Source: an uncultured Alphaproteobacteria bacterium
Lineage (GTDB): Bacteria; Pseudomonadota; Alphaproteobacteria; Rhodobacterales; Rhodobacteraceae
Length of the DNA stretch: 64,000 nucleotides
Direction of reading: 5' to 3'
Assembly: GCA_913031285.1 (NCBI GenBank)
Contig: CAJWEI010000005.1
Location: forward strand, 1-64,000
Made by a program: the position numbers and the translations under genes. Shown piece after piece: positions 36,507 through 61,753 of this stretch. Each line of letters begins with the position of its first letter. The first letter of the stretch is position 1. Under the pieces are notes generated by a model. That model was not told the DNA's origin. It did no database searches and saw only the letters and a program-made list of their open reading frames with translations.

Positions 36507-36517
36507 AAGGTCGTATT

Positions 36518-36775: not shown

Positions 36776-39698
36776 TCGTTTGAAAGCGGGTGGTAGAATT
36801 GACCGCTCAAAAAGATTGAGTTTTAATTTTAATGGAAAAATTTATTACGGATTTGAGGGTGATACATTAGCTTCAGCCATGCTTGCAAATGGTTTGAATG
36901 TAATTTCTCGAAGTTTCAAGTATCATAGACCCAGGGGTATTATTGGATCTGGAGTAGAGGACCCCGCTTCATTAGTAGAGCTGCTGGACGAGGAAGCATC
37001 GGGTAACAATTTAAGTACTAACGTAAAATTAAAAGAAGGCTTAAGTGCTAAATCAATTAATTGCTGGCCAAGTGTAGATTTTGATTTTGGAGCAATTACA
37101 CAGTACTTTGAAAAATTTATTCCTGCAGGGTTTTATTACAAAACTTTCAAGTGGCCCACTTGGCATCTTTTTGAGCCTTTAATTAGAGTAGCTGCTGGGC
37201 TAGCTAACGCGCCAAAAATGCCGCCTAAGAGTGGACATTTTGAGTCAAGAAATGCGCATACGGACTATTTAATAATAGGTGCTGGTCCAGCTGGCTTGTT
37301 GGCAACATTGATTGCAGCTCGGTCAGGGGCAAATGTATTTTTAGTTGACCAAAATACCGAGGCGGGAGGTAGTTTATTAAGTTTAAATTTAAGTATCAAC
37401 AAAAGACCCGCGATGGACTGGGTTGATGGCGTGATTAAAGAAATTTCAGCCATGTCAAATGTAACCCATTTACAGGACAGCACAGCATGGGCTTATAGAG
37501 AGCATAATCTTGTTGTTGTTAATGAGCGGGAAGTTGAGAATGCCTCCATTATTGAGAGAAGTTGGAGAATTCGCGCAAAAAAAGTTATTATTGCTACCGG
37601 TGCGATTGAGAGATCTCTTGTCTTTCCCAATAATGACCGGCCTGGCGTTATGTTGGCATCAGCAGTGCAAACCTTCGTGAGTCGCTATGCGGTCAAGCCA
37701 GGCGAGAATTTGGTCATTTTTACAAATAATGACAGCGTTTATAGTTACATTAAGGACTTCAAACGGGCTGGTATTAATATCTTAGCAATCGTGGACTCGC
37801 GAAAAACTATTGAAAGCGATGTTCTTGATTACGCGGCTGATGAAAGAGTTATTCCTTACTCAATCATAAAAAATGTAAATGGATACAAAAAAGTTAACTC
37901 AGTTGTAGTCGAGTCATTCGGTGACAATGGTTTAGAAATTATTTCATGTGATTTACTAGCCCACTCAGGAGGATGGAATCCTGCGGTCCACTTACACTCA
38001 CAATCGCGAGGAACAGTTAGCTTTGATGAAAAAATTGCTGCATTCATACCGGACCAATATGTTCAAAGCGCAATAAATATTGGGGCGTGCAACGGAAATT
38101 TTAATTTGCGAGAAATTTTTGATGAAACTAAGTTGTTTATGCTGGGTCAGCTTAGTGCTTCGAAACAAATGGTATATGAAGAAAAATTAGAATGTAATAA
38201 GCAGATGTACTCTATTGAAGCACTTTGGAGCACGGACCTGTTAAATGAAAAAAACAAAGCCTTTTTTGATATCCAAAATGATGTAACACATCATGATATT
38301 CAACTCGCATTGAGAGAGGGTTTTTCCAATATTGAGCATGTAAAGCGCTACACCACCGGTGGAATGGGCTTTGACCAAGGAAAGACAGGTAATGTGAATA
38401 TAATTGGGGCAATCGCGGACCTAGAGGGTATAGGATTAAATGATGTTGGCACGACAACCTTTAGATCACCTTTTACACCTATATCATTTGGATCAATAAG
38501 TGGTGTTAGAGAGGGGGCGGTTGTCTTACCTTTTAGGCATACTCCAGTAACAAAGTGGAATCTTGAGAAAGGTGCCTTCATGTATGAGGCTGGAGCACGT
38601 TGGCGTAGACCAGGTTATTTTCCAAGAGATGGAGAAAGTTTTCAAGAGGCGGTAAATCGTGAGTGTCACGCCGTAAGAACTGGTGTTGGTGTCTATGATG
38701 GTTCTCCTCTGGGTAAGTTTGAATTAAAAGGTGAAAATGTCGGAGAATTTTTAGATTTAATTTATACAAATATGATGTCTTCCCTTTTACCAGGCAATGG
38801 AAGATATGGACTGATGTTGACAGACGATGGATTAATTTTCGATGATGGAGTGGCTTTTAGGATAGATCAACATCGTTGGTTTATCTCTACTTCTTCCGGT
38901 CATTCAGACTCTGTAAATCAGCACATGCAGAAAATTTTAGCTTTTGATCGTCCAGATTTGGATGTCAAAATCACCAATATTACTAATCAGTGGAATAATG
39001 CTACTGTCTGCGGTCCACTTGCCAGAAAACTGTTACAAAAATTGGGAACAAATATTGATTTAGGAAATAGTTCTTTTCCGTTTATGACATTTCGTGAAGG
39101 AAAGATTGCGAACATTCCTGCGAGAGTTATAAGAGTCAGCTTTACTGGTGAGTTGTCTTTTGAAATAAATGTGTCTCCTAGGAATATGCTCACGTTATGG
39201 GAGAAAATAATTAAAGCAGGTGCAGAATTTGATATTTTACCAGTAGGTTCTGAGGCTAGTCACGTATTAAGAGTTGAAAAAGGCTTCTTGTCGCTTGGTC
39301 ATGAGGTAGATGGAACGGTGGATCCGTATGATCTCGGTATGAATTGGGTAATGTCTAAGAAAAAAATAGATTTTATTGGTAAAAGATCTGTACACCTAAG
39401 ACGTAGTTCAGGAATAGTCAGGAGAGAATTAGTTGGACTGTTACCAACAAATCCTGATGAAGCAATTCCTGAAGGTGCGCCACTTACACCAAAGGGGAAA
39501 AAAGTTGCTACTGAAGGGTTTACTACCGCTTGTGTTTGGAGCGTGGTGAATAACCGCTGGGTAGGATTAGCTCTGCTTGAGAATGGTCATTCTCGGCATG
39601 GTGAAGAGGCTTATGTGAGATTGAAAAACAAGATTATTAAGGCTGAGATAACTAGACCAGTGTTCCACGACCCGGATGGAAAATTATTGAGATCTTAA
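36762..39698 (+). CDS. soxA: sarcosine oxidase subunit alpha
   Basis: This large subunit (978 residues from my start) has an N-terminal 2Fe-2S-ferredoxin-like region (GDTLASAMLANGLNVISRSF), a Rossmann NAD/FAD region (IIGAGPAGLLATLIAARSGA), and a C-terminal aminomethyltransferase (GcvT) half binding tetrahydrofolate (RPGYFPRDG, LRVEKGFLSLGHEVDG). I prefer the TTG at 36762, which has GGAGA 7 bases upstream and yields MKSHNRLKAGGRID, the usual SoxA start. An ATG at 36741 in the same frame has no ribosome site. Both starts overlap soxD. Confidence 0.93.
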   Translation: MKSHNRLKAGGRIDRSKRLSFNFNGKIYYGFEGDTLASAMLANGLNVISRSFKYHRPRGIIGSGVEDPASLVELLDEEASGNNLSTNVKLKEGLSAKSINCWPSVDFDFGAITQYFEKFIPAGFYYKTFKWPTWHLFEPLIRVAAGLANAPKMPPKSGHFESRNAHTDYLIIGAGPAGLLATLIAARSGANVFLVDQNTEAGGSLLSLNLSINKRPAMDWVDGVIKEISAMSNVTHLQDSTAWAYREHNLVVVNEREVENASIIERSWRIRAKKVIIATGAIERSLVFPNNDRPGVMLASAVQTFVSRYAVKPGENLVIFTNNDSVYSYIKDFKRAGINILAIVDSRKTIESDVLDYAADERVIPYSIIKNVNGYKKVNSVVVESFGDNGLEIISCDLLAHSGGWNPAVHLHSQSRGTVSFDEKIAAFIPDQYVQSAINIGACNGNFNLREIFDETKLFMLGQLSASKQMVYEEKLECNKQMYSIEALWSTDLLNEKNKAFFDIQNDVTHHDIQLALREGFSNIEHVKRYTTGGMGFDQGKTGNVNIIGAIADLEGIGLNDVGTTTFRSPFTPISFGSISGVREGAVVLPFRHTPVTKWNLEKGAFMYEAGARWRRPGYFPRDGESFQEAVNRECHAVRTGVGVYDGSPLGKFELKGENVGEFLDLIYTNMMSSLLPGNGRYGLMLTDDGLIFDDGVAFRIDQHRWFISTSSGHSDSVNQHMQKILAFDRPDLDVKITNITNQWNNATVCGPLARKLLQKLGTNIDLGNSSFPFMTFREGKIANIPARVIRVSFTGELSFEINVSPRNMLTLWEKIIKAGAEFDILPVGSEASHVLRVEKGFLSLGHEVDGTVDPYDLGMNWVMSKKKIDFIGKRSVHLRRSSGIVRRELVGLLPTNPDEAIPEGAPLTPKGKKVATEGFTTACVWSVVNNRWVGLALLENGHSRHGEEAYVRLKNKIIKAEITRPVFHDPDGKLLRS

Positions 39699-39699
39699 A

Positions 39700-40200
39700 A
39701 TGGCGTATAATGTAAAAATCTATCCCAGGATACTAAACACAATCTTTGACATTAAAGGGTCCATAAGTGACGTCAGAGCTCATTTGAAAGACCACATATA
39801 CTCTTTTCCAACTAAGCCTAACTCTTATATTTCGCAAGGTGACTGGAAAGTTTTTTATGTGGGATTAAATCATTGGATTTTAATGGCCCCAATTGACGAT
39901 GAGCAGGAATTAACTGTTAGTCTTAAGCCTGAAGATGCACCTGCTTCGGTTAGTATTGTTCTAATTTCTGACACACTCACGTTTTTTCATCTCGATGGGC
40001 CAGATGCATTTTCTATCATGTCGATAGCATGCCCTCTAAATTTGAATAATGATGCATTTACGGAAGAAAGCGTAACTTTTAGCGAGATTTTTGGGCTGAA
40101 AGGGTTAATATTTCGTGATGGTCATGGATTTAAGTTTGCTGTTGATCAAAGTTTCGGCGAAATGGTTTCCCAATACCTTAATCTAACCCTTGCAGATTAA
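39700..40200 (+). CDS. soxG: sarcosine oxidase subunit gamma
   Basis: This 166-residue protein matches the SoxG family, a GcvT-like fragment. It sits one base after soxA, with the segment TFFHLDGPDAFSIMSIACPLNL and later GLKGLIFRDGHGFKFAVDQSFGEM split over the fold. SoxG is the least conserved subunit, so the position gives as much support as the sequence. It completes the four-subunit enzyme. Confidence 0.9.
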   Translation: MAYNVKIYPRILNTIFDIKGSISDVRAHLKDHIYSFPTKPNSYISQGDWKVFYVGLNHWILMAPIDDEQELTVSLKPEDAPASVSIVLISDTLTFFHLDGPDAFSIMSIACPLNLNNDAFTEESVTFSEIFGLKGLIFRDGHGFKFAVDQSFGEMVSQYLNLTLAD

Positions 40201-40229: not shown

Positions 40230-41243
40230 TCAATTAGAAGTAACCATTTTTTCAGCAACTAGCGTTAACATTTCTCCTTTTCTTACCATCCCCCGGTTAG
40301 AATGCGCTAAAATGACCCCACTTCTTTTAAATTCGAGCCTTGTCGATGGCCTGTTTGGCTCCGTTATATAGTGAAACCAACCTGCTATTTGCCCTGTGTA
40401 AACCTTATCCCCGGCTTTGACATTTCTGTCAAATATTCCAAGCGTTGGTGCATATAGTGATGCGCTTACATCACTTAACTCAACTTGGTCAAACTTTTTA
40501 GGTGCTTCATTTACTGTACTTTTGTATATATTCAGATAATTTAAAATTTTTAAAATTCCCATTTCAGCCAAATCGGTTATCTCTGGATCGACACCACCGC
40601 CGCCACCTAGCTCTGCTGCAATCATTGGAACGCCTGCTCGGTCAGCCGCTGAATTTAGTGATCTATTATCATTATTTTCACCTAAGACCCAAATAGTGGG
40701 GATACCAAAAGATTTCGCTAAGTTTAAATTTTGTCTAAATAGGTCATTACTTTTCGATTTTTGGACTAATGCGCACGGCATAAAAAATGATGCTTTTCCT
40801 CCAGAATGAAGGTCGATTACAGCGTCAAAACCATGAATAAGATCATTTTCTAAATAATCGGCTAGCATTTCTGTTGGTGATCCGTTGGGGTGGCCAGGAA
40901 ATGCTCTATTCATGTTTCTATTGTCCAGAGGATTGGTTCTGCTAGATTGTGTTACTGCAGCAAAACTTAATGCTGGTATAAACAATATTTGGCCATTTAC
41001 CTCATTTAAAGAGATCTTTTGGGATACCCTCATTATTGCGGAGGGGCCCTCGAATTCGTCGCCATGATTTCCACCAACTATGAGAATATTTTTTCCATGA
41101 CTATTTTTTATATTTATAATTGGGATTGGATGGTACCCTAAAGGAACGGCATTATCGGACCAAGGTATCATTAACTCACCAAACTGATGGCCCTTTTTTT
41201 CTAAATCAATGTTCGAATGTATTCTAGAATTGGCTCTTTTCAT
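40230..41243 (-). CDS. succinylglutamate desuccinylase/aspartoacylase family deacylase (DoeB-like)
   Basis: This 337-residue M14-family zinc deacylase has metal ligands H60 and E63 (GGNHGDEFEGP) and H146 (IDLHSGGKAS). It also has the substrate Arg region RNMNRAFPG and the general base E211 (AAELGGGGGVD). A C-terminal beta domain follows (GKLIFDRNVK-like stretch GIFDRNVKAGDKV). From memory it is closest to N-acetyl-diaminobutyrate deacetylase DoeB/EutE of ectoine degradation, but the other ectoine genes are absent here. It is convergent with soxG and divergent from the TauD gene. The likely substrate is an N-acylated amino acid. Confidence 0.85.
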   Translation of the reverse strand: MKRANSRIHSNIDLEKKGHQFGELMIPWSDNAVPLGYHPIPIINIKNSHGKNILIVGGNHGDEFEGPSAIMRVSQKISLNEVNGQILFIPALSFAAVTQSSRTNPLDNRNMNRAFPGHPNGSPTEMLADYLENDLIHGFDAVIDLHSGGKASFFMPCALVQKSKSNDLFRQNLNLAKSFGIPTIWVLGENNDNRSLNSAADRAGVPMIAAELGGGGGVDPEITDLAEMGILKILNYLNIYKSTVNEAPKKFDQVELSDVSASLYAPTLGIFDRNVKAGDKVYTGQIAGWFHYITEPNRPSTRLEFKRSGVILAHSNRGMVRKGEMLTLVAEKMVTSN

Positions 41244-42482: not shown

Positions 42483-43229
42483 ATGTCTATTGAAAGCCCA
42501 ATAATAAAATTTCAGAACGTTGATAAATTTTACGGAGAATTTCAAGCGCTTAAAGATATAAGTATTGAAGTTCAACCAAGTGAACGGATGGTCATATGCG
42601 GTCCTTCTGGCTCGGGTAAATCTACGTTAATTAGGTGCATCAATGGCCTTGAAAATCATAATTATGGTCAGATAATTGTGAATGGAATTGAACTATTCGA
42701 AGGGTCCAAAGAATTAATTAGGCTTCGACAGGAAATAGGCATGGTTTTCCAACAGTTTAATTTGTTTCCGCATTTAACAGTTTTAGAGAACTTAACAATC
42801 GGCCCTATTAAAGTTCGTAAGATTTCAAAAGTTCAAGCTGAGATAGTAGCTCGTAAATACCTCGACCGTGTGCATATTCCGGAGCAAGCTGAAAAATATC
42901 CATCAGAATTATCAGGTGGCCAACAACAACGCGTAGCAATAGCCAGATCTTTATGTATGGAAAGCAAAATTTTACTTTTTGATGAACCTACTTCTGCCCT
43001 AGATCCTGAAATGATAAATGAAGTTTTGGACGTCATGGTGGAATTAGCTGATACTGGTATGACAATGGTTTGCGTGACGCACGAAATGGGGTTTGCCAGA
43101 AAAGTTGCTGATACGATGGTGTTTATGGATGAAGGTCGGATTATAGAGGTGGCCCCACCAGATAAATTTTTCTCTAAACCGGATAGTGTAAGGTGTAGAG
43201 AGTTTTTAGATCAAATATTGGAGCACTGA
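42483..43229 (+). CDS. polar amino acid ABC transporter ATP-binding protein
   Basis: This 248-residue ATPase has Walker A GPSGSGKST, the Q-loop FQQFNLFPHLTVLENLTIGP (typical of GlnQ/HisP-type proteins), the signature LSGGQQQRVAIAR and Walker B ILLFDEPTSALDPE. It closes with the D-loop His switch VTHEMGFARKVAD. Only the polar amino acid family has this exact wording. A permease follows by 5 bases, then binding protein and second permease. This is a complete importer. Confidence 0.94.
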   Translation: MSIESPIIKFQNVDKFYGEFQALKDISIEVQPSERMVICGPSGSGKSTLIRCINGLENHNYGQIIVNGIELFEGSKELIRLRQEIGMVFQQFNLFPHLTVLENLTIGPIKVRKISKVQAEIVARKYLDRVHIPEQAEKYPSELSGGQQQRVAIARSLCMESKILLFDEPTSALDPEMINEVLDVMVELADTGMTMVCVTHEMGFARKVADTMVFMDEGRIIEVAPPDKFFSKPDSVRCREFLDQILEH

Positions 43230-43234
43230 TTATA

Positions 43235-44077
43235 ATGAAGGGTGACGCTGCGCCATCTTTGAAAATTTTACCTTTGCGGCGTACTTCCGCTATTAATCAT
43301 TTTTTATCGTCTACCCCGGTTTCTGTTTTTATTTATTGTTTGATAGTGAGCTGTATTCTCTACTCTTCTTTCAGAGGGGCTCAATCCATGGGGTATAACT
43401 GGCAATGGTATCAAATCCCAAAATATATTTATAGTTACACTGACGAGGGCTTTCAATTTGGGGAACTTATGCTGGGCCTGTGGACTACGATCACACTGTC
43501 TTTTACAGCATTTTTTCTTGCTTTAATCATTGGTTTTTGGGTCGCTCTTTTACGCCTTTCCGGCCTATTTATAGGCACAAAAATTGCGATATGTTTCTTA
43601 GAGTTTGTCCGCAATGTACCTTTACTGGTCCTAGTTTACCTTTTTTATTATGTTTTGGGTCCAGTTTTTAAGTATGACCGATATACTGCCAGTATCCTTT
43701 GCCTAGCGGTTTATCATTCAGCTTTAATATCCGAAATCCTAAGGGCCGGAATAAATGCTGTTGTCCAAGGTCAATGGGAAGCGGCAAAATCAATTGGAAT
43801 GAGTAAGATGCAAACTTACATATATATAATATTACCTCAATCTGTTAGGTTCCTTTTACCGCCCATGACGGGAGAGGTAGTCCACATGGTTAAAAGTTCT
43901 GCAATTGTAAGTGTTATAGCCGTTGCTGAACTAACTACTTTGGGTCAAAATATAATTTCTGATACTTACATGGCTTTTGAAATTTGGTTCACGATAGCGA
44001 TCATATATATGATCGTTATTATGATCCTCTCCATCGGTGCGTCGCAAGTAGAAAAGCGATATACCGTTACTAACTAA
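43235..44077 (+). CDS. polar amino acid ABC transporter permease
   Basis: This 280-residue inner-membrane permease carries the HisMQ-type pattern LWTTITLSFTAFFLALIIGF, the segment EFVRNVPLLVLVYLFYYVLG, and the ATPase-docking EAA loop QWEAAKSIGMSKMQTYIYIILPQ. About five or six helices follow an N-terminal extension (FIYCLIVSCILYSSF). It is one of two related permeases flanking the binding protein, as needed for a heterodimeric channel. Confidence 0.92.
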   Translation: MKGDAAPSLKILPLRRTSAINHFLSSTPVSVFIYCLIVSCILYSSFRGAQSMGYNWQWYQIPKYIYSYTDEGFQFGELMLGLWTTITLSFTAFFLALIIGFWVALLRLSGLFIGTKIAICFLEFVRNVPLLVLVYLFYYVLGPVFKYDRYTASILCLAVYHSALISEILRAGINAVVQGQWEAAKSIGMSKMQTYIYIILPQSVRFLLPPMTGEVVHMVKSSAIVSVIAVAELTTLGQNIISDTYMAFEIWFTIAIIYMIVIMILSIGASQVEKRYTVTN

Positions 44078-44123: not shown

Positions 44124-44954
44124 ATGAATATCACGAGACGTCTACTAGGAGTGGTGTCTGTCGCTGCTTTAACTATTCTGAGTTTTTCTCATGCCACCTT
44201 TGCAGGTGCTTCGCAACAACTTGGTGCAGACAGTGTGATCGAGACTATAAAAAAACGTGGTGTAATAAAGATTGGGTTAGATTTATTTGTTCCTTGGTCA
44301 ATGAGAGATAAAAATGGAGATCTAGTTGGTTTTGAGCCAGACGTAGGACGAAAATTGGCTGCGGATATGGGTGTCGAAGTAGAATTTGTACCAACAAAAT
44401 GGGCCGGAATAATCCCCGCTTTGGTTGCGGGTAAGTTCGATGTAATCATAAGTGGTATGACTGTTACACCGGCTAGAAATCTGACAGTGAACTTTTCAGA
44501 GCCCTATGCTTTCTCTGGACTAACAATTCTAGCTAATACCGCAATGACTGAAGGAATGGCTTTAGAAGACTATAACAGCGAAGATATTACTTTTTCCTGT
44601 CGTAGAGGAGCAACGCCTTGTGTGTTCATCCAAAATAAGTTCCCTAAAGCAAAATTACTCATGTTTGATGAAGATGGTGCTGCTACGCAAGAAGTCTTGA
44701 ATGGTAACGCGCACGCGACCATGGCTACAGAGCCTGGGCCATCACAAGATGCTAGACGTAACCCAGAAACTTTGAGTGTTCCATTCAATCAAGCGTTTGA
44801 TGCTGGCGGAGAAGGTTTCGCAATGCGAAAATCAGACCCAGATGCTTTAGCATATTTTAATAGCTGGATCAGAAGACACCATCATACTGGTTGGCTGAAA
44901 ACTACCCATGATTACTGGTTTCGAGGTGATGAGTGGCATGACCAGGTTGAATAA
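44124..44954 (+). CDS. polar amino acid ABC transporter substrate-binding protein
   Basis: This 276-residue periplasmic binding protein has a signal peptide (MNITRRLLGVVSVAALTILS, cleavage probably after HATFA). The SBP_bac_3 domain starts RGVIKIGLDLFVPWSMRDKN, with GFEPDVGRKLAADMGV and the ligand-loop region ISGMTVTPARN-x-x-VNFSEPY. The ligand acid-amine contacts cannot be read reliably. Cys pair CRRGATPC suggests a disulfide. It lies 46 bases after the permease, and a hairpin follows its stop. Confidence 0.92.
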   Translation: MNITRRLLGVVSVAALTILSFSHATFAGASQQLGADSVIETIKKRGVIKIGLDLFVPWSMRDKNGDLVGFEPDVGRKLAADMGVEVEFVPTKWAGIIPALVAGKFDVIISGMTVTPARNLTVNFSEPYAFSGLTILANTAMTEGMALEDYNSEDITFSCRRGATPCVFIQNKFPKAKLLMFDEDGAATQEVLNGNAHATMATEPGPSQDARRNPETLSVPFNQAFDAGGEGFAMRKSDPDALAYFNSWIRRHHHTGWLKTTHDYWFRGDEWHDQVE

Positions 44955-45018: not shown

Positions 45019-45891
45019 GTGCTGAAGATATTAAAAAAACTGCACTGGATGGATGCTTTGGTCTTGGGATGCGTAATTGCATTCTTTTGGTACGTGCTTG
45101 TGCAGATGGGCAGTAATCTGAACTATAACTGGCGATGGGACAAAATTCCAAATTACATTTTCAAGTACCACACGGGTAGGGAAGAATGGTTTGCAAATGT
45201 TCTTCTCCAAGGCTTAATTATTACAATAAGAGTAAGCATTTATGCTAGCATTTTGGCACTTATTTTAGGAGTAATATTAGGGATCGCGCGCTGTTCTCAA
45301 ATTCTCGTAGTACGAATGTTGGCAAGAACTTATCTGGAGTTTCTGAGGAATATTCCCCCTCTAGTAGTGATTTTCATTTTTTACTTCTTTTTGGCTGAGC
45401 AACTAATACAGGCAATTAGTATTGAAGATTGGGCATACAGTGTAGCGAAAATGGAAGATAATCAACTTTGGGAATTCTTTTGCGGGGATATGCGTAGATT
45501 TCCCTCCCTAGTTTCGGGCGTTATCGTTTTAGCCCTATTTGAGAGTGCTTTTGTGGGTGAGATAGTTCGGGCGGGAATCCAATCTATAGATCGTGGCCAA
45601 CGAGAAGCTGCTAGATCTATAGGGATGAATAAATTTCAAGAGATGCGATATATTGTTTTACCTCAAGCCATGAGAAAGATCATGCCTCCTATGGCAAACC
45701 AATTCATAACTTTAATAAAAGACAGCTCAATAATATCCCTTATTTCTGTACAAGAACTGACCTATAAAACTGCCGAATTGGTTTCATCGACACATATGAT
45801 ATTTGAGGCTTGGTTAACAACAGCAGCTTTTTACTTTATTATATGTTTTAGCCTGTCTTCATTGTTCAGCAAACTTGAACGACACAAGTGA
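45019..45891 (+). CDS. polar amino acid ABC transporter permease, second subunit
   Basis: This 290-residue permease of the HisMQ type starts with GTG at 45019. The docking loop QREAARSIGMNKFQEMRYIVLPQ is intact, and YLEFLRNIPPLVVIFIFYFF is the characteristic membrane stretch. An insertion around residues 135-160 (AISIEDWAYSVAKMEDNQLW) lengthens the periplasmic loop. It follows the binding protein across the hairpin at 44975-44999. With the other permease and ATPase it completes the importer. Confidence 0.92.
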   Translation: MLKILKKLHWMDALVLGCVIAFFWYVLVQMGSNLNYNWRWDKIPNYIFKYHTGREEWFANVLLQGLIITIRVSIYASILALILGVILGIARCSQILVVRMLARTYLEFLRNIPPLVVIFIFYFFLAEQLIQAISIEDWAYSVAKMEDNQLWEFFCGDMRRFPSLVSGVIVLALFESAFVGEIVRAGIQSIDRGQREAARSIGMNKFQEMRYIVLPQAMRKIMPPMANQFITLIKDSSIISLISVQELTYKTAELVSSTHMIFEAWLTTAAFYFIICFSLSSLFSKLERHK

Positions 45892-45933: not shown

Positions 45934-46962
45934 ATGTTTTTAAGAAACTGTTGGTATGTTGCAGGTTGGAGCAAAGATTACGGTAGGACCCTTAAACCTG
46001 AAAAGTATCTTGGCGAAAATATTGTTATCTATAGAAAGCAAGATGGGACTCCCGCTGCTTTAGAAAATGCCTGTCCTCATCGAAAAGTACCCCTTTCAAA
46101 CGGAACTCTGACTGAAGATAATATAATTTGTGCTTATCATGGTTTGACATTTAATGATAAAGGGCAATGCATCGACTCTCCAACCCAGAGAGGTATGACA
46201 CCAAGAAGGGCGGTTGTTAAATCTTATCCGATTGTCGATAAGTATAGACTACTTTGGATATGGATGGGCGACCCTGAAGTAGCTGACCCAGATAAAATAT
46301 TTCCAATTGATAATTTTGAAAATCCAATGTGGGGAACTACAGATGGGGGAGTCCTCGATATTAAATGTAATTACCTATGGGTTTGTGATAATTTGTTAGA
46401 TCCAAGCCATGTTGCTTGGGTTCACGTTACTTCTTTTGCAGGTGGTGGTACTGATGATCAGCCTTTGGACATAGAGAAGACAGATAGAGGTGTGGTTGTG
46501 TCTCGCTGGATAAATGGAAACCTACCATCCCCATATTATGCAGATCTCGTCAAATTTGATGGAAATTGTGACCGCTTACAGCATTATGAAATGTGTCTTC
46601 CCGCTATTGCTTTAAACAAGTCTATATATACACCAGAAGGTACTGGAGGACGTGGAAAAGCTCATGTTGATAAGACCTACATTAATATCTCATATAATTT
46701 TATGACGCCAATAGATAAAGATAATACGCGGTATTTTTGGTTTCAACACCGTAATACAGATCCTCATGATAAAGACATTTCTGAGAAAATGAACGCTGGA
46801 GCTGTAATGGCTTTTGAAGAGGATAGGGCAGTTTTGGAAGATGTACATCTTGGGATGGAGAACCCTGCTACGCCAAATATTGATTTAGGGTTGGATGCTG
46901 GGGCTAAGCAATTCAGAATGATGTTAGGTCGTAAAATCCAAGAAGAGCAAAGCAACCTGTGA
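45934..46962 (+). CDS. VanA-like Rieske non-haem iron oxygenase, alpha subunit
   Basis: This 342-residue oxygenase has the Rieske ligands C47, H49 (CPHRKVPL) and C66, H69 (CAYHGLTF). The mononuclear iron site is CDNLLDPSHVAWVH, with D156, H159 and H164 as candidates. The size and N-terminal FLRNCWYVAGW match the VanA/aromatic O-demethylase and N-demethylase group. No reductase like VanB is nearby; the ferredoxin at 48341 could supply electrons. It follows the second permease by 42 bases, so a role in demethylating the imported substrate is plausible. The substrate is unknown. Confidence 0.88.
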   Translation: MFLRNCWYVAGWSKDYGRTLKPEKYLGENIVIYRKQDGTPAALENACPHRKVPLSNGTLTEDNIICAYHGLTFNDKGQCIDSPTQRGMTPRRAVVKSYPIVDKYRLLWIWMGDPEVADPDKIFPIDNFENPMWGTTDGGVLDIKCNYLWVCDNLLDPSHVAWVHVTSFAGGGTDDQPLDIEKTDRGVVVSRWINGNLPSPYYADLVKFDGNCDRLQHYEMCLPAIALNKSIYTPEGTGGRGKAHVDKTYINISYNFMTPIDKDNTRYFWFQHRNTDPHDKDISEKMNAGAVMAFEEDRAVLEDVHLGMENPATPNIDLGLDAGAKQFRMMLGRKIQEEQSNL

Positions 46963-46971
46963 GAAAATAAT

Positions 46972-48337
46972 ATGGCCAGAATAGATGTTACAGATTTAAC
47001 ATCGGGTCCTATTGTAAAACACCTGTGTAATTTAGCTATACCAGCGGCAGTGGGCATGCTTTTCCATACTTTATACAATATAGTCGATGTATATTTTGCT
47101 AGTATACTTTCGACCAACTCTCAGGCTGGGTTATCCCTCGGGTACCTTGTCTATTTTTTTTATTGCAGCTTTTGGGTTTGGCTTGAACGCCGCAATGGCT
47201 GGCTTGCTGGGACATGCAATTGGAAAAAGAGATGAAAATACCTCATCCTTGGCTTTAAATGGAATAGTATTTTCAATATTCCTATTGGCTGTTTTGATGA
47301 TATTCGGTTGGCTATTTGGTTTTCGAATGCTGAATTTAATTTCTGCATCAGGAATTTATAGAGATTTAGGGTTACAGTATTATTTTTGGTTATTAACATC
47401 TCTTCCGGCCTTTTTAATTTCATATACCTGCAATGGTATCTTACAAGCGCAAGGAAATACTGTTGCGATGCAAAGAGCGTTAATAGCGGCATTTTTTCTC
47501 AACCTATTATTAAACCCGCTGCTTATATTTGGGGTCCCTGGCTTTTGTGAGGGTATTGGATTTGATGGTATAGCACTGTCAACAGTAATAAGTAATTATT
47601 TCGTCATGTTTTTGATGCTTTTAAGTGTTTCAAAAAGTAAAGTTGTGCCTTCATTTTATAATTGGATTTTTAACATCAATATTTTTGCGGAGCTAATCAA
47701 ACAAATGGTTCCCCCCACGATGTCTTTTCAAATGATCATTCTTGGTACCCTTATAATGCAGTTTGCCTTGAAGGATTTTGGTCCAGAAGCAATTGCCGAG
47801 TATAGTATTGCCGTTAGAATTGAGCAATTAGTGCTTCTACCAATTCTTGGTGTCACTCATGCATTGTTGTCAATTTTTGCCCAAAGTTTCGGTGCAAAAG
47901 AGTATCACAGAGTACGTGAATCTTTATATTGGTGAATAAAAATTGGAATTTTGACAATGGTAGCAGCTTATCCAATTATTTGGTGTTTGAGCTCATATGC
48001 TATGATGTTTTTCACAAAAAGCCAGGCCGTTATTGAGGTAGGAGTAAGCTATTTAAGGGTAGATGGATTAGTATTGCCTGTCTATGCATTTCTATTTTCA
48101 ATTAATTCTTTATTACAAGGATTGAAACGCCCTGCTGGGATATTTTGGATTGGATTTGCAAGACAGGGTATTGGAACTGCATTTTTCATATGGGTTTTTA
48201 TCAGCGTATTAAGATTTGATTATTGGGGAGCTTGGTGTGGCGCTGCAGTGAGTGTAATCTTGGGTAGTTTGCTGTCCCTAGCTGTGGCTTGTAAAGTCTC
48301 AAAATCAGAAATTGACGGTCTTAAAATCATCAATTGA
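46972..48337 (+). pseudogene. broken MATE-family efflux transporter
   Basis: The gene starts 10 bases after the Rieske oxygenase (MARIDVTDLTSGPIVKHLCN) and has two lesions. The first is a T8 run at 47154-47161: dropping one T joins LSLGYLVYFF to IAAFGFGLNAAMAGLLG, the expected MATE sequence, so one extra T shifts the frame. The second is an in-frame TGA at 47933-47935, after ESLYW and before IKIGIL. Downstream reading continues in the same frame as MTMVAAYPIIW to 48337. All other MATE parts are collinear, about 450 residues if restored. Two independent lesions favour recent loss over a sequencing error. Confidence 0.85.
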
Positions 48338-48340
48338 GCA

Positions 48341-48655
48341 TCATATGCAAATTTGGACCATCGATTTGTTCACTCGAGACTTGATCATCCTGAGGCGCAC
48401 TCGTGCGGGAACTGCTTTTGCTTCACCTGTTCTTACATCAAATAATCCTTGGTGGAGCGGGCACTCGATATAAGTACCGTCAAAATACCCATCGCATAAA
48501 TTGGCTGCCCCATGAGTACAGCGAGACAGGCTAACGAAGATACCATCTTTTGCATCGTATACAGCTAAATCCTTTGTTCTAAACTTGACGTTAGTGACAT
48601 CGCCTTGTTCTAAATCATCAAGTGCGATGATATTATGCCATTTTGAAAGATCCAT
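48341..48655 (-). CDS. Rieske-type 2Fe-2S ferredoxin
   Basis: This 104-residue protein is a small soluble Rieske ferredoxin with ligands C46, H48 (CTHGAANLCDG) and C65, H68 (CPLHQGLFD). Length and layout match the electron-carrier components of multi-subunit oxygenases. It follows the desaturase-family gene by 5 bases on the same strand and is therefore its likely electron donor. It could also serve the VanA-like oxygenase. No ferredoxin reductase is present in the window. Confidence 0.92.
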   Translation of the reverse strand: MDLSKWHNIIALDDLEQGDVTNVKFRTKDLAVYDAKDGIFVSLSRCTHGAANLCDGYFDGTYIECPLHQGLFDVRTGEAKAVPARVRLRMIKSRVNKSMVQICI

Positions 48656-48660
48656 TGTTT

Positions 48661-49614
48661 TTAAAAACTGTCGCTTCTTGGCGCACGGCCAACTAATTGA
48701 GAAATTATATCAATATGTGCACCTAAATATCCGCGCTCTTCAACATAGACATAGCCTTTCAGCTTGTCATGTAATTTTGGTAGTGCATGGAACGGTATTG
48801 AAGCAGCATAATGATGTTCTGCATGATAATTCATATTCCAACATAGAAATTTCATGGGAAATGATATCAAGCTGCTTCTGGTATTTTCTTTTAAATCGTT
48901 CGTATTTGGGCGTCCGACATGCTCTGTTAATCTTATTGCTCGCATCACTGGTTCGCCTATCATAACTGGCAGCCACCAGTACCACAGTAAAGCCCAATTA
49001 TCGAAATAATAGGATCCTGTTAGCAGTAGACAGTACAAAAAAACCATTATCCGTGCTTCTTTGAATACTGTTTTTTGCTCTAATCTTGGAATGAATTTTC
49101 TTTCACCGGCGCTTAATTTACCAAAAACATGTCTCAAAATCTCAGTGAATTTATTTTTCCAATAGGGCAGAGAGGATAAGTACCAAATATATTTATAAAT
49201 TGATATTGGCAATTCGATTAACTCTGGGTCTTGGCCTGTGATTTGGGTATAAGTGTGATGATCACAGTGCTCGTAACGAAAATGTTGGTTAGGCACCATG
49301 ATCGAAAAGCCACAAATGTGACCAAATATATCGTTTAATTTCCTTGTTTTAAATGCAGTGTAATGGCAGCATTCGTGTTGCAAAGAAAAGTGATGAACAA
49401 TGATCACTCCCTGCAAAAACATTGCTGGTATCAATAACCAACTGTTTGAGCAGGCGTAAATCAACAAACTAGTTATTACTAAAAGGGTTATCCAAAAAAA
49501 CAACCTAATTAAAGCTGGTTTATCAGATCGAGCCATTAATAATTTAAGCTCTCGGCGTGTGATTACACCTTCGTTCATAGCCTGGGTAATTGGAGTTTTA
49601 ACTTTGTAGGACAT
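48661..49614 (-). CDS. fatty-acid-desaturase-family membrane di-iron oxygenase
   Basis: This 317-residue protein has all three histidine boxes of membrane di-iron enzymes: HECCH (H80-H84), HCDHH (H116-H120) and HAEHH (H264-H268), plus H232 in TEHVG. About four hydrophobic segments are present (such as LFFWITLLVITSLLIYA). Its partner is the adjacent Rieske ferredoxin, unusual for acyl-lipid desaturases and closer to hydroxylases of small substrates. The GlxA-type regulator lies 79 bases upstream on the same strand. Family certain; substrate (acyl, alkyl or N-methyl compound) is open. Confidence 0.9.
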   Translation of the reverse strand: MSYKVKTPITQAMNEGVITRRELKLLMARSDKPALIRLFFWITLLVITSLLIYACSNSWLLIPAMFLQGVIIVHHFSLQHECCHYTAFKTRKLNDIFGHICGFSIMVPNQHFRYEHCDHHTYTQITGQDPELIELPISIYKYIWYLSSLPYWKNKFTEILRHVFGKLSAGERKFIPRLEQKTVFKEARIMVFLYCLLLTGSYYFDNWALLWYWWLPVMIGEPVMRAIRLTEHVGRPNTNDLKENTRSSLISFPMKFLCWNMNYHAEHHYAASIPFHALPKLHDKLKGYVYVEERGYLGAHIDIISQLVGRAPRSDSF

Positions 49615-49693
49615 GAGTAAACCAAGAAAATAACTTAATTGAAGGGATCACAGTATTACGCAAAACTCAAGTTCAATTGTTGCAATTTATAAT

Positions 49694-50656
49694 TCATCTG
49701 GCGCGTCGCGTGTCTAGGGGTGAATAACCAAATTCCTTTTTATAATATTTTGAGAAGATCTGCCTACTTGTAAAACCACTGACAATTGATATCTCCAAAA
49801 TTGAGAGTGAGGTATGTTCGATTAATTGTCGTGCATGAAGTAATCTCCTTACTATGTAATACTGCTTTGGGGATTTGTTGAAATGTATGGAAAATAACCT
49901 TTCTATTTGCCGCAAAGATAAACCGACCGTCTCTGAAATTGATTTTAGGGTAATTGGATTTTCTAAATGTCCTTCCATTAACGAGAGCACTTTCTTTAGG
50001 CTTCTTGGAACGTCTCGTAATCTTTGCGCATTACTTTTTGGTTGTTCTAGATCTCCATTTCTGGTGAACGTTATCATTAAATGGTCGCAAACCTGATCAG
50101 CACAGTCTTGCGAATATTCCTTTTGTATAAAACTTATAGTCATATCTAATGCTGCAGCTTCGCCTGGACTGCTCGTTATATGATCAGATGAAACGAACAA
50201 TGCATCTCTGGCCAAAATGTCTTGGTTCATTTCCTTAAAAGCCGCTAGGGTTGTCCAATGAACAGTACCTTCGCCTCCAGAAAGTATTCCTGAACCTGCC
50301 ATCTTCCAACCTGCAGCTCCAACGCCAAATGTTGGAATTCTGTGCTGGTTGCATATGCGTAAAATTCTTTTTAACAAACTTTGGACGGTAAAAGGTGTTT
50401 TTAAACCACAACATAAAAATACTACTGAAGTTTGCGTTTTTCTGCGGATGTCTTTTATAGCTTCCTGCAGTTGTGTTTGGCAATTTATACTTACTCCCGA
50501 CTCAGAAAAAATCGGTTCTCCAGAGATTGAGATTAATTCGTATTGAATAAATAAATCAGGACTTAATTTTTTAAGTGTATGGAGTGGCTCTAAGATTGCA
50601 CCCAATGATAAATAGGAGAACCCCGGAACCAATACAATTTTGATGTTTTGTCTCAT
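49694..50656 (-). CDS. GlxA-family AraC transcriptional regulator
   Basis: This 320-residue regulator has an N-terminal DJ-1/PfpI-like sensor domain (about 1-190; VFLCCGLKTPF, FGVGAAGWKMAGSG) and a C-terminal AraC double helix-turn-helix (KSISETVGLSLRQIERLF, then SILEISIVSGFTSRQIFSKYYKKEFG). Family members such as GbdR, ArgR and CdhR respond to glycine betaine, arginine or carnitine. It is transcribed towards the desaturase-ferredoxin pair and divergently from the P450. That makes it the likely controller of one or both. Ligand is inferred only by family. Confidence 0.9.
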   Translation of the reverse strand: MRQNIKIVLVPGFSYLSLGAILEPLHTLKKLSPDLFIQYELISISGEPIFSESGVSINCQTQLQEAIKDIRRKTQTSVVFLCCGLKTPFTVQSLLKRILRICNQHRIPTFGVGAAGWKMAGSGILSGGEGTVHWTTLAAFKEMNQDILARDALFVSSDHITSSPGEAAALDMTISFIQKEYSQDCADQVCDHLMITFTRNGDLEQPKSNAQRLRDVPRSLKKVLSLMEGHLENPITLKSISETVGLSLRQIERLFSIHFNKSPKQYYIVRRLLHARQLIEHTSLSILEISIVSGFTSRQIFSKYYKKEFGYSPLDTRRAR

Positions 50657-52090: not shown

Positions 52091-52792
52091 ATGGATAACG
52101 TTATGGCTGACACGACTTTGGTTATTGCTGATAAAAATTATAGTTTATGGCCACTAGCACCATGGCTTTGTATGAAAAAAGTAAAAATGCCTTTTAAAGA
52201 AAAGCTTATAAGGTTTGGACAACTCAATACCCGTGAACAAATGCTTGAGTATGCTCCAACAGGTCGCGTACCCGTTCTTTTACACAATGACGTGAAAGTA
52301 TGGGATTCTTTGGCCATCTGTGAATTTATCAATGAATTGTTTCCATCTAAGCAGCTTTGGCCGGAAGATCTGTATAAGAGAGCACAAGCAAGAATATTTG
52401 CATCGGAAATGCACGCAACCGGTGGAGCATTTCCTGGTGCGCCAAGGCATATTATTTATTCTTTAGACACCAATGTTAGAAGGCGCGTGAAAAGAACCAG
52501 ACTAAATGATAATGCTTCAGAAAGTATAAAATATCTGATAGATCGTTGGCAAAATCTAATTGATATGTTTGGTGGGAAAGGCGGTTTTTTATTCGATAAT
52601 TTTACCATTGCTGATGCTATGTCGGCTCACATGGTCAATAGATTTATCACTTATGACATAAAGTTACCAAATGATATAATTAATTATTGCAATAATATGC
52701 GTAATTTTCCCCCGTTGGCTCAGTGGGTACGAGAGGCAGAAGCAGAAGATTGGACTTTTGCTCCAGCTGAAATAGACGTATCAAAAATATGA
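52091..52792 (+). CDS. glutathione S-transferase family protein
   Basis: This 233-residue GST has the thioredoxin-like half with SLWPLAPWLCMKK, the cis-Pro segment GRVPVLL and DSLAICEFI. The all-helix half follows, with FTIADAMSAHMV. The SLWPLAPWL pattern is typical of a GST group often seen in alphaproteobacteria whose role is unknown. It follows the P450 by 35 bases. Coupling with an oxidation product of the P450 is possible. A second in-frame ATG at 52103 could be the start. Confidence 0.87.
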   Translation: MDNVMADTTLVIADKNYSLWPLAPWLCMKKVKMPFKEKLIRFGQLNTREQMLEYAPTGRVPVLLHNDVKVWDSLAICEFINELFPSKQLWPEDLYKRAQARIFASEMHATGGAFPGAPRHIIYSLDTNVRRRVKRTRLNDNASESIKYLIDRWQNLIDMFGGKGGFLFDNFTIADAMSAHMVNRFITYDIKLPNDIINYCNNMRNFPPLAQWVREAEAEDWTFAPAEIDVSKI

Positions 52793-55071: not shown

Positions 55072-55863
55072 ATGACTGGATATATATTAGAAAAAGATGT
55101 CAGAAACTTGCGACAAGAATACAGTCAAAATGGCGTAGTCGTTATTAGAAATGCAGTGAGTCCGTATTGGATAGAAATTTTGCGAGACGCCATAGAAACT
55201 CAATTAAAGAAGAATAAACGATATTTTGATAATCGAAATATGCGGATGCAAACGGGAAGTTTTAATGATTTTTGTCATAATTCTGAAATTGGCAGAATAG
55301 TTGCTGACTTGGTAAACTCAAAGACTAGTCGACTAGTCTTTGATCAAATGTTTGTTAAGGAAGTGGGAACTAAAACTCGAACAGGTTGGCATACTGATCA
55401 GCCATACTGGCCAATAATAGGTCCTGTCATTACAACCTGGATAGCGCTTGATTGTGTCGATGAAAGAAATGGTGCCCTTGAGTTTATTACAGGTTCACAT
55501 CGTTGGGGAAAAAAATACCATCCTTTTTTAACTGATCAGCTTGGGGCTTTTGTCGAGTATATCAAGCCAGATGATTTGCAATATGACGAAATGCCCGATT
55601 TTGAGGCAGAGCGTGATAAACATGAGATTAAATCTTGGTCATTGCAGCCAGGCGATATGCTAGCTTTTGACGGATTTATTGTGCATTCTGCAAAGGGAAA
55701 TGAAACTTCTACGCGCCGCAGGCGTGGTTATGCGGTGCGCTTTGCTACCGATGGCGCCACCTATGACCCAACTCAGGGAGTAGCAAAATGGCTGGAAGAT
55801 GAAAATTTAAAATCTGGCGATGCATTTGAAAGTACAAAATTCCCACTCATATTTAGTAGGTAG
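55072..55863 (+). CDS. phytanoyl-CoA dioxygenase (PhyH)-family oxygenase
   Basis: This 263-residue Fe(II)/2-oxoglutarate oxygenase has the iron ligands H107 and D109 (TGWHTDQPYWP) and H205 (FIVHSAKGN). The Arg cluster TRRRRGYAVRF binds 2-oxoglutarate. The ITGSHRWG and LQPGDMLAFDG segments are PhyH-family hallmarks. Members hydroxylate acyl-CoAs or small metabolites such as ectoine and phosphonates. It stands alone on the plus strand before the convergent hutC. The substrate is unknown. Confidence 0.9.
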   Translation: MTGYILEKDVRNLRQEYSQNGVVVIRNAVSPYWIEILRDAIETQLKKNKRYFDNRNMRMQTGSFNDFCHNSEIGRIVADLVNSKTSRLVFDQMFVKEVGTKTRTGWHTDQPYWPIIGPVITTWIALDCVDERNGALEFITGSHRWGKKYHPFLTDQLGAFVEYIKPDDLQYDEMPDFEAERDKHEIKSWSLQPGDMLAFDGFIVHSAKGNETSTRRRRGYAVRFATDGATYDPTQGVAKWLEDENLKSGDAFESTKFPLIFSR

Positions 55864-55945: not shown

Positions 55946-56647
55946 TCAAAGTCGTGATGTCATCTGATAACCAGCATGAAAGTAGAGCTTCGTATATGTT
56001 ATAGGTGCGTTGGTAAACCAAGTAATGCGTTCCAGAGTTACCAATGCAGTACCAACTGTGACATTCAAAAGGTCAGCAACTTGTGTATCTGCGTTGATTG
56101 TTGAAAATGTGATCTCAGCATCGGAAAATGGCACTTGCTTAATTAGCCATTCATTTGGGCCCATCTCTTCGAAGTCCTGATCGACTGCTTTAGGGGCTGC
56201 ATTAAGATTAATCCAGCGATCTTCATATTGGAACGCTTTACTATCTGCGTAATGTAGACACATAAGGTGCAATACAGGTGTGTTTTGTGGTATGGTCATT
56301 TGTGTTCTTAGCCAGTCTGGCGGGTCCCGAAACTCTCGGTTGATCAGAGCATAGCGATACGTAGCACCTGTGAGTTCAATCTCATCACGGATGATTGGGA
56401 TGACAAACTTTGCTTTTCTGGTGGGAAAAGATTTAATCCGTGTGCCAGCTTTGCGCTTTCGATCAATGTAACCATCTTCTGCCAGCTCCCGCATTGCTCT
56501 GTTAACGGTTGCCCGAGCACAACCAAATTCTGTGGCAAGTTCAATCTCACCAGGCATAATGCTTCCTGGAGCCCACGTAAAGTTTTTGATACGTTTTAGG
56601 ACAATTTCTTTGATATCCAGATAGCTTATTTTTGGAGCAACGGTCAT
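55946..56647 (-). CDS. hutC: GntR-family histidine utilisation repressor HutC
   Basis: This 233-residue regulator has an N-terminal winged helix (ILKRIKNFTWAPGSIMPGEI, CARATVNRAMRELAEDGYI) and a C-terminal UTRA ligand domain, which in HutC binds urocanate. It lies 111 bases after hutF on the same strand. HutC represses hut genes until urocanate accumulates. The assignment rests on the HutC-type sequence and the locus. Confidence 0.92.
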   Translation of the reverse strand: MTVAPKISYLDIKEIVLKRIKNFTWAPGSIMPGEIELATEFGCARATVNRAMRELAEDGYIDRKRKAGTRIKSFPTRKAKFVIPIIRDEIELTGATYRYALINREFRDPPDWLRTQMTIPQNTPVLHLMCLHYADSKAFQYEDRWINLNAAPKAVDQDFEEMGPNEWLIKQVPFSDAEITFSTINADTQVADLLNVTVGTALVTLERITWFTNAPITYTKLYFHAGYQMTSRL

Positions 56648-56758
56648 GTTATATATTGCCTGGATCTGTTATTTTTTTGGTATGATCAGTTTCAATTAAT
56701 TCAACCTTAGATTTTTTTGAAGACAATGAATACAGAGCAGAGGGAAAATTAAGGACCA

Positions 56759-58123
56759 TTATCCTAGTCTTTTTTTCAGAGTTGTAATGGTCTTGAAATA
56801 TGATGCTTGGATGTTGTTCTCTTCGATATGTATTCCGTCCCTTACCTGATGGCGTCCGGCTGACCAGACATCTGTAATAACATTATCTTTTGCCGCAAAT
56901 ACAAGTCCGTCAATCAGCTGATCATTGCGCAAAGCACAAAGGTTCGTATGGCAAGAATCGACTGCCATGAGATCTGCGAGTTTGCCGGGAGCAATGCTTC
57001 CAGCTTTGCGGTCGAGCGCTTGGGCCCCACCACTTGCTGCTCCTAGATAAAGGGCCTCGCCAACGGATCCCTCGGTGTGGATCATAACGTTGCGCTGCTG
57101 GTCCCTTAATCGCTGAGAATATTCCAGGGTCCTTAGTTCTTCTGTAAGCGAGATATTTATGTTTGAATCGGATCCTACGCCTATTTTCCCATTTTCTTTT
57201 ATAAATGTGGGACCCTCAAATATACCGTCACCTAGGTTAGCTTCCGTGATTGGGCAGAGGCCAACCACAGCACCAGTCTTAGCTAACCCGATTGTTTCTG
57301 CTTGGGTCATATGAGTTGCATGGATCAGACACCAATTAGTATTGATGGCATGATTTTCTAAAAGCCATTCGACAGGCCGCGCGCCGAATGCTTCAGAAAC
57401 TTCTGAGACCTCTTTTGTTTGTTCTGCAATGTGCATGTGTACTTGCTTGTCTGAATAACAGCTTAGTAATTCTTTGATATCGCTTGGAGTTGTTGCACGA
57501 AGTGAATGAGGGGCAATGCCCACACGTGTGTCAGGCGGTAAAAAACTGATAGTTTTTTGCGAAATTGAGACAATATTACAAATTTCGTCAATTGAATTAC
57601 CAAAACGCAGCTGGCCACCTGCAAGAGGTTGCTTTTGTGCGCCAGCATATGTGTATAAAACAGGTAGATGTGTCAGGCCAATACCTGTCAGTTTTGCGGC
57701 CTCGATGATCCTAACGGACAATTCAGCAGGGTTATCATAGGTATTGCCGCCAGATCCATGATGGATATAATGAAACTCTCCGACGGCGGCATAGCCAGAT
57801 TTTTGCATTTCCATAAATGTTTGAGCAGCAATCGATGAGATATCTTCTGGTGTCAAATAATTTAGAAATCGATACATTAATTCGCGCCATGTCCAGAAGT
57901 TTTCACGACCTGCAGCTCTGTACTCTGTCATTCCAGCCATTGCACGCTGAAAGCTATGACTATGCAGATTTGCAAGAGCAGGGAGTAACGTATCTACTCT
58001 TATATCCTTGCTTTTTGGCTTAACCCCAATTCTGATTTTCTCGATGTGACCATCTAAGATTGTCACTCGCACATTTTCAACCCACCCATCAGTCAATCGT
58101 GCTTTCTGAGAAAAAATATCCAT
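56759..58123 (-). CDS. hutF: formimidoylglutamate deiminase HutF
   Basis: This amidohydrolase-fold enzyme turns formimidoyl-glutamate into N-formylglutamate and ammonia. Its metal motif is LANLHSHSFQRAMAG, followed by HMHIAEQTKE, LIHATHMT and GVGSDSNI. It is 454 residues from the ATG at 58123 (MDIFSQKARLTDG), preceded by AAGG at 8 bases. The frame opens earlier to 58171, but those residues do not resemble HutF. HutF plus HutG is the two-step route to glutamate. It is divergent from hutI. Confidence 0.94.
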   Translation of the reverse strand: MDIFSQKARLTDGWVENVRVTILDGHIEKIRIGVKPKSKDIRVDTLLPALANLHSHSFQRAMAGMTEYRAAGRENFWTWRELMYRFLNYLTPEDISSIAAQTFMEMQKSGYAAVGEFHYIHHGSGGNTYDNPAELSVRIIEAAKLTGIGLTHLPVLYTYAGAQKQPLAGGQLRFGNSIDEICNIVSISQKTISFLPPDTRVGIAPHSLRATTPSDIKELLSCYSDKQVHMHIAEQTKEVSEVSEAFGARPVEWLLENHAINTNWCLIHATHMTQAETIGLAKTGAVVGLCPITEANLGDGIFEGPTFIKENGKIGVGSDSNINISLTEELRTLEYSQRLRDQQRNVMIHTEGSVGEALYLGAASGGAQALDRKAGSIAPGKLADLMAVDSCHTNLCALRNDQLIDGLVFAAKDNVITDVWSAGRHQVRDGIHIEENNIQASYFKTITTLKKRLG

Positions 58124-58136
58124 TTTTTTTGCCTTA

Positions 58137-58152
58137 TTATGTATAGACATAA
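58137..58152. promoter_or_regulatory. candidate HutC operator in the hutF-hutI intergenic region
   Basis: TTATGT (58137-58142) and ACATAA (58147-58152) form a perfect 6-bp inverted repeat around ATAG, in the only 85 bases between the divergent hutF and hutI starts. Its TGTATA-x-ACA-like centre resembles GntR/HutC-type operators. One site here could control both arms. Confidence 0.5.
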
Positions 58153-58208
58153 AATCCATAAAGGCATACAAACTTTATTACAAGACAGGTTAAGAAATAG
58201 GACAGGAC

Positions 58209-59417
58209 TTGGAACGTCGGAAAATTCTGCACAACTGCCGCATTGCCACAATGCAGCATGGGCATGTGCCCTACGGACTATTAGAAGATGGTGCAGTTGT
58301 TTTGGAAAATGAGCATATCACTTGGTGTGGTGTTCTCAAAGATTTGCCTGCTGACTTTCGTAAAGCTAAAAAATTTGATCTTGAGGGTCGGTTGGTGACA
58401 CCAGCGCTTATCGATTGCCATACACATACTGTTTTTGGTGGTAATCGTGCACTTGAATTCGAAATGCGCTTGAATGGGGCAACATACGAAGAGGTGGCGC
58501 GGGCGGGCGGTGGCATTGTGTCTACTGTTGCTGCCACTCGAGGCGCGAGTGAAGCAGAGCTGGTCGCGGATGCTTTACCCCGGGTGGATGCTCTTATTGC
58601 AGAGGGCGTTTCTACTGTAGAGATAAAATCTGGCTATGGGCTTGATTGTGAAACCGAGTTAAAGCTGCTGCGTGCAGCTCGCAAGATAGCAGACGTGCGG
58701 GATGTTGAGGTTATCACAACTTTTCTGGGGGCGCACGCTGTCCCGTTGGAATATTCTGGACGGCAGGACGCATATATAGACGAAATATGTCTGCCTACGC
58801 TGCGTATTGCGGTTTCGGAAGGTCTGGTTGATTCTGTTGATGCGTTTTGCGAAGGAATAGCCTTCCAACCAGATCAAGTTGCAAAGGTCTTTGATGTTGC
58901 GACCGACCTAGATCTCCCAATTAAAATTCATGCTGAACAGCTGTCAAATCTCGGCGGAGCCAAACTTGCCGCCCAGTATAATGCGCTTTCAGCAGATCAT
59001 TTAGAATATCTTGATGATGAGGGGGCTGCGGCTATGGCTTCTGCTGGTATGGTCGCTGTCATTTTGCCTGGCGCGTTTTATACGCTCCGGGAAACTCAAA
59101 AACCGCCAATAGATATTTTGAGGCATCATTGTATTCCCATGGCAATCGCCACTGATGCCAATCCTGGATCCTCTCCAATGACCTCTTTGCTTTTGGCAAT
59201 GAATATGGCGTGCACTCTATTTCAGATGACACCTGAGGAGGCTATGATTGGAACAACACGAAATGCCGCGTGCGCCCTTGGATTAGGTGAGCGCGGGGTA
59301 GTACAGGCGGGCTATCGAGCTGATTTAGCTGTTTGGGATATTAAACACCCGTCAGAGTTTGCATATCGTATTGGATTTAATCCTCTCAAATCTCGAATTA
59401 TTGGAGGCAAGTTATGA
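58209..59417 (+). CDS. hutI: imidazolonepropionase
   Basis: This 402-residue amidohydrolase opens the imidazolone ring to formimidoyl-glutamate. It has [15 protein letters not shown] (metal His pair), [24 protein letters not shown] and [10 protein letters not shown]. It starts at a TTG (58209) with AGGAC next to it; this is the only start that keeps the conserved N-terminus ([12 protein letters not shown]). It overlaps hutH by 4 bases. It is first of hutI-H-G-U. Confidence 0.95.
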
Positions 59418-61740: not shown

Positions 61741-61753
61741 AAAGGACATAAAG

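Follow-up and report, generated by a model that had tools for sequence, protein, structure and literature searches.

Among the closest described counterparts of the locus analysed here is rhizopine catabolism by mocDEF (PMC10107442). In the MocD–MocE(–MocF) system of rhizobia, an oxygenase of the FA_desaturase superfamily is followed by a Rieske ferredoxin, and the genes belong to a catabolic locus with an importer, acting on a small polar substrate. Another membrane di-iron superfamily protein, GntB, is named for a free amino acid, as the L-arginine gamma-hydroxylase of guanitoxin biosynthesis. Glycine betaine catabolism (Gbc, Dgc, SoxBDAG, GbdR) shares with our locus a Rieske oxygenase, a heterotetrameric Sox and a GbdR-like regulator. 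DdmC and the vanillate demethylase oxygenases represent the type to which this neighbouring Rieske oxygenase belongs, though it stands in a different gene context.

The window, i.e. the whole stretch of DNA that was analysed, comprises the first 64,000 nucleotides of contig CAJWEI010000005.1 from an uncultured member of the Rhodobacteraceae. Three genes on its minus strand encode an AraC/GlxA-type regulator (49694–50656), a membrane di-iron oxygenase of the FA_desaturase superfamily (48661–49614) and a Rieske [2Fe-2S] ferredoxin (48341–48655), which presumably supplies the di-iron protein with electrons. All three reading frames are open; 79 bases separate regulator and oxygenase, and 5 bases separate oxygenase and ferredoxin. 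The original prediction had described this arrangement, including the preceding regulator and the three intact His boxes, correctly. The oxygenase matches the Pfam FA_desaturase model with 138.7 bits and has the His boxes HECCH, HCDHH and HAEHH, while the ferredoxin matches the Pfam Rieske model with 57.7 bits. An AlphaFold model of the oxygenase (pLDDT 86.5) has as its nearest solved folds chains of the chloroplast Ycf2/Orf2971–FtsHi complex and AlkB; a PHROGs scan of the protein gave no match.

The order of oxygenase and Rieske ferredoxin, the location in a catabolic locus with an importer and the small polar substrate that we predict all resemble MocDE. The combination had been considered to be without precedent, but MocD–MocE is an established example of such a pair. 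However, the oxygenase is ~33% identical to MocD, and in a tree of 68 rows its family forms one clade with 100% support, MocD and its relatives falling into a separate one (97%). Its partners are a SoxBDAG operon, a VanA-type oxygenase and an amino-acid-type ABC importer, not inositol-type genes. We predict that the pair works like MocDE, yet it is not MocDE. It does not belong to GntB either: the oxygenase scores 37.5 bits where the model (NF041365) demands 380, and GntB is biosynthetic, not catabolic.

In named bacterial and archaeal genomes we found 80 loci with oxygenases that are 56–79% identical. Most hosts are Rhodobacteraceae, with some Rhizobiaceae and gammaproteobacterial Granulosicoccaceae. 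The three-His-box pattern is intact in all 80 oxygenases, its positions being invariant in an alignment of 36 rows, and the CxH...CxxH pattern is present in each of the 78 orthologous ferredoxins. A ferredoxin gene lies within reach of the oxygenase gene in 78 of the 80 loci, a pairing beyond chance, and the two genes often overlap by 4 bases. In two loci (L051, L052) the oxygenase has shifted away inside the locus, with the ferredoxin still close. The GlxA-like regulator, on the other hand, is kept in only eight loci, all from close relatives, its place being taken elsewhere by XRE-cupin, LysR or HutC-like regulators. The oxygenase and ferredoxin thus form a conserved unit to which the regulator is a local addition, and the three-gene module that had been proposed holds for the ferredoxin as constant partner and fails for the regulator, which we rejected as a member. 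The best NCBIfam model for the regulator is GbdR (NF052371), but the protein scores 182 bits where 480 are required and is therefore a GbdR-like paralogue, not GbdR itself.

The conserved gene set is larger than originally recognized. The counts of partners given here refer to loci picked by oxygenase similarity and cut at a flank of 10 kb or at contig ends, and are therefore lower bounds that are not phylogenetically independent. On the plus strand, an amino-acid-type ABC importer is encoded by genes for an ATPase (42483–43229; about 47/80 loci), a permease (43235–44077; 46–47/80), a family-3 substrate-binding protein (44124–44954; 49/80, with co-occurrence also at the genome level) and a second permease (45019–45891; 49–51/80). 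It is followed on the same strand by the Rieske oxygenase of VanA/dicamba-demethylase type (45934–46962; 42/80), which matches the Pfam models Rieske and VanA_C and has DdmC as its nearest solved structure. A peroxidase-related (CMD fold) protein, found in 30 of the loci, starts at 63664 on the plus strand and runs past the window end at 64000 to contig position 64242. Together with the Sox operon described below, the importer, the Rieske oxygenase and this gene belong to the set, and the importer and the sarcosine-oxidase-type operon had rightly been considered relevant.

Other neighbours are less widespread. Genes for a DoeB/aspartoacylase-like hydrolase (40230–41243, minus strand) are found in 13–16 of the 80 loci and RidA genes in 12. 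A cytochrome P450 gene (50847–52055, plus strand), divergent from the regulator gene, recurs in 16 loci and adjoins the importer in genome G020; at the expected position of the I-helix oxygen-binding motif it has the unusual sequence AEANTDNSS. A gene for a glutathione-transferase-like protein (52091–52792, plus strand) occurs in eight loci, from close relatives. One for a PhyH-type 2-oxoglutarate dioxygenase (55072–55863, plus strand) likewise has a count of eight and is also present in Ruegeria clusters. A MATE efflux gene (47087–48337, plus strand) is interrupted into two reading frames by a stop at 47933–47935, its N-terminal part being in another frame near a T-run at about 47155. Intact relatives of 459 residues are encoded beside the oxygenase–ferredoxin pair in about 20 of the 80 loci (e.g. 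L046, 11274–12653); the split gene is a pseudogene or an assembly error.

Gene order varies considerably. In annotated Ruegeria plasmids the set is contiguous over ~17 kb. Locus L032 has SoxA–SoxD–SoxB–CMD–NicX-like (the NicX-fold gene is discussed below), followed by oxygenase–ferredoxin–Rieske oxygenase, with the Rieske oxygenase gene directly behind the ferredoxin gene; the same two blocks face each other in genome G065. Since importer, Rieske oxygenase, SoxBDAG, NicX-fold and CMD genes keep reappearing in many different arrangements, the set is held together by selection and not by an inherited gene order. Among 147 related genomes, three (G000, G020 and G065) have the oxygenase. In all three, the Rieske oxygenase, SoxB and the binding protein each have a close orthologue, in G020 on three different contigs. 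In G085, the fourth carrier of these orthologues, the ferredoxin gene lies at the end of a contig, and the break would have removed the oxygenase gene. A search of the literature for the gene combination found no report.

The SoxBDAG-type operon is located at 35211–40200 on the plus strand, with the subunit order of heterotetrameric sarcosine oxidase: SoxB-like (35211–36506), SoxD-like (36518–36775; 22/80 loci), SoxA-like (36741–39698; 25/80) and SoxG-like (39700–40200; 14–21/80). A divergent operon of this type is found near the oxygenase in 21–26 of the 80 loci. In comparison with the glycine betaine route, the subunits stay just under the curated cut-offs (SoxB 495 bits versus 529; SoxA 1126.6 versus 1164), and the SoxB subunit belongs to another clade than those of the other Sox operons of the genome: it is 67–80% identical to SoxB from other clusters and 39–42% to three further SoxB-type proteins of its own genome. 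The di-iron oxygenase is a further addition to the glycine betaine scheme, as is the NicX-fold protein in other genomes. Alignment with the solved chain 1vrq_B revealed that the His which we take to be flavin-linking and the Arg and Lys at presumed carboxylate-binding positions are kept, and that a pocket loop is changed from NCGW...GGFKA to TAGW-WGGYKA. The dedicated clade, the kept residues and the altered loop suggest that the probable substrate is not sarcosine but another N-methyl amino acid. Fitting a folate-linked demethylation, purU is located beside the Sox genes in the annotated cluster of Paracoccus.

We consider it rather probable that the pair is a two-component membrane di-iron monooxygenase which hydroxylates a small carboxylated N-methyl compound after its import and probably demethylates it, further methyl groups being taken by the Rieske oxygenase and the Sox-like oxidase. 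A ferredoxin reductase encoded elsewhere would reduce the Rieske ferredoxin, which would hand single electrons to the di-iron site bound by the three His boxes. There, O2 would be activated and oxygen inserted into a C–H bond, most likely one in a methyl group or at an adjacent carbon, and a hydroxylated N-methyl group would leave as formaldehyde. The VanA-type Rieske oxygenase and the pathway-specific SoxBDAG would remove or oxidize further methyl groups, the Sox-removed methyl entering the folate pool. The substrate, brought in by the neighbouring ABC importer, would be small and polar, from among the N-methylated amino acids and betaines, with histidine-derived compounds as first candidates.

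Uptake and oxidative demethylation of such a compound are suggested by the Rieske oxygenase type, the SoxB clade, purU and the family-3 binding protein together; the last of these points to an amino-acid-like ligand. The binding protein matches the solved homologue 9e2b with 273.8 bits, for which a literature search returned only unrelated text and no ligand. Genes for the Rieske oxygenase, Sox, the NicX-like protein, CMD and the importer are also present in Paracoccus seriniphilus, but no di-iron pair lies near them and a plant-type ferredoxin is found instead. The pair is thus not obligatory and may carry out another step. The idea of the window ferredoxin as general donor of the Rieske oxygenase gains no support from this organism, while ferredoxins of the window type, where present, may serve both oxygenases. 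Against the N-demethylation reading, a simple demethylation would not obviously require the NicX-fold protein, the P450 or the MATE protein.

Histidine utilization is encoded in the window itself (cluster at 55946–63436), and the CMD gene adjoins hutU there as well as in L057 and in G020, where the Rieske oxygenase gene adjoins too. Genes for histidine utilization were found in five of the 80 loci, against 0.37 expected if placement were random. The neighbourhood of CMD and hut genes recurs in several separate lineages (the window genus, Marivita, G020 and G085); in G085 hut genes lie beside importer 2 and the CMD gene, and on a Leisingera plasmid within ~7 kb of the latter. HutC-like regulators are found beside the NicX-fold gene in L086, L092 and G004. 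This recurrent linkage hints at a histidine-derived substrate. In its specific form, which we regard as unlikely, the substrate would be an N-alpha-methylated histidine (hercynine or N-methylhistidine), losing its first methyl groups to the oxygenases and the last one to Sox before histidine enters the Hut pathway, in analogy to the Gbc, Dgc and Sox steps of glycine betaine degradation; the GbdR-like regulator of the window would suit such a scheme. However, hutH was not detected in 10 of 50 carrier genomes, including ones with a compact cluster of the G065 type, which weakens a route through histidine even though some assemblies are drafts and the absence is not firm. The linkage could also reflect a general clustering of nitrogen catabolism, and the histidine route does not account for the NicX-fold protein or the P450. 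A search for reports on hercynine degradation in Rhodobacteraceae found none. The nearest relative encodes, no more than 5 kb from hutH, a HutH paralogue (L192, 10756–12216) that scores 302 bits and stays below the cut-off for hutH; this paralogue was not found in the genome of the window, and a hercynine-lyase/ergothionase route was dropped.

The NicX-fold protein is encoded within 10 kb in 44 of the 80 loci (L111, 8777–9880, and 43 others). The family has no Pfam or NCBIfam match and contains the conserved motifs WHAGIHP and LHFHTCG. It has the fold of 2,5-dihydroxypyridine dioxygenase (7cup; Z 24.3 over 301 aligned residues, rmsd 3.5), with a Z of 16.9 against M29 peptidases. These values favour a pathway in which an N-methylated heteroaromatic compound such as trigonelline or homarine, which had been suggested originally together with stachydrine, is degraded, the oxygenases hydroxylating the ring, the NicX-fold protein cleaving it and Sox demethylating the remaining N-methyl amino acid; the RidA, hydrolase and GST-like genes would suit ring-opening products. 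On the other hand, no member of the family was found in the genome of the window, whose close relatives share P450, GST-like, TPR and PhyH genes instead, and the HFH of the family is unlike the His-x-Asp which we take to be the NicX motif. Moreover, a degradation pathway for homarine is cited in a passage of PMC13390433 as already published (Nat Microbiol 2026). We regard this explanation, too, as unlikely. As a tentative proposal, which we hold with less confidence than the two-component monooxygenase, an undescribed pathway that is widespread in marine Rhodobacterales and occurs also in Rhizobiaceae and Granulosicoccaceae may dismantle a methylated marine metabolite, either of histidine type or heteroaromatic. 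It would employ a new membrane di-iron/Rieske-ferredoxin oxygenase together with the VanA-type oxygenase and a Sox-like oxidase with a new specificity, and many carriers would add the NicX-fold protein as ring-cleaving enzyme.

That the enzyme desaturates or hydroxylates lipids and uses a Rieske ferredoxin by coincidence is highly improbable: the Pfam FA_desaturase match and a weak, partial match to the DesA model (42.8 bits of 500) are in favour of this reading, but DesA-type acyl-lipid desaturases (L147, L157 and L158) form a separate, distant clade in the tree, and the partner genes serve import and demethylation, not lipids. A lipid desaturase was thus rejected, in agreement with the original prediction. 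Least probable of all is a plain MocDE member O-demethylating an inosamine-type compound, since, despite the identical two-protein architecture and a distant sequence similarity, the oxygenase is outside the MocD clade, the ferredoxin reaches 64.9 bits against the MocE cut-off of 136.15 (TIGR02377), which a control from R. leguminosarum passes with 142.7, and the scanned flanking genes include neither a MocF-type reductase nor inositol-type (Gfo/Idh/MocA) genes, both of which L168 has.

Methylated nitrogen compounds make up a large share of marine dissolved organic nitrogen, and many of their uptake and degradation routes are unassigned. The gene set, previously unnamed and now defined by conservation across about 80 loci, is widespread in marine Rhodobacterales and probably imports and demethylates a small nitrogen compound. 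Current annotations of its genes as ‘fatty acid desaturase’ and ‘sarcosine oxidase’ would mislead metabolic models. The pair is carried by cultured Ruegeria, Marivita, Sedimentitalea and Planktotalea, the variant without it by cultured P. seriniphilus. With cultured carriers and a set defined in this many loci, ligand screens of the binding protein and knock-out mutants offer a way to the substrate.

Related arrangements were seen elsewhere. Genome G000 has, on contig C13, a second, distant oxygenase–Rieske ferredoxin pair with an HcaD/AndAa-like ferredoxin reductase downstream (L035, 9136–14811). Another related pair (L127, 8328–11303) lies directly behind a gene annotated as 5-guanidino-2-oxopentanoate decarboxylase and possibly acts on an arginine-derived substrate. 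A second recurrent module, consisting of an SBP2–ATP–permease importer with CMD, was found in genomes without the oxygenase (L184, 8456–13866; L185, L186 and L188); L184 and L185 also have a 2OG dioxygenase, and L184 GST-like and creatininase-family genes. Past the histidine-utilization cluster, contig positions 64573–78023 contain carotenoid- and chlorophyll-biosynthesis-like genes, and the organism is probably an aerobic anoxygenic phototroph.
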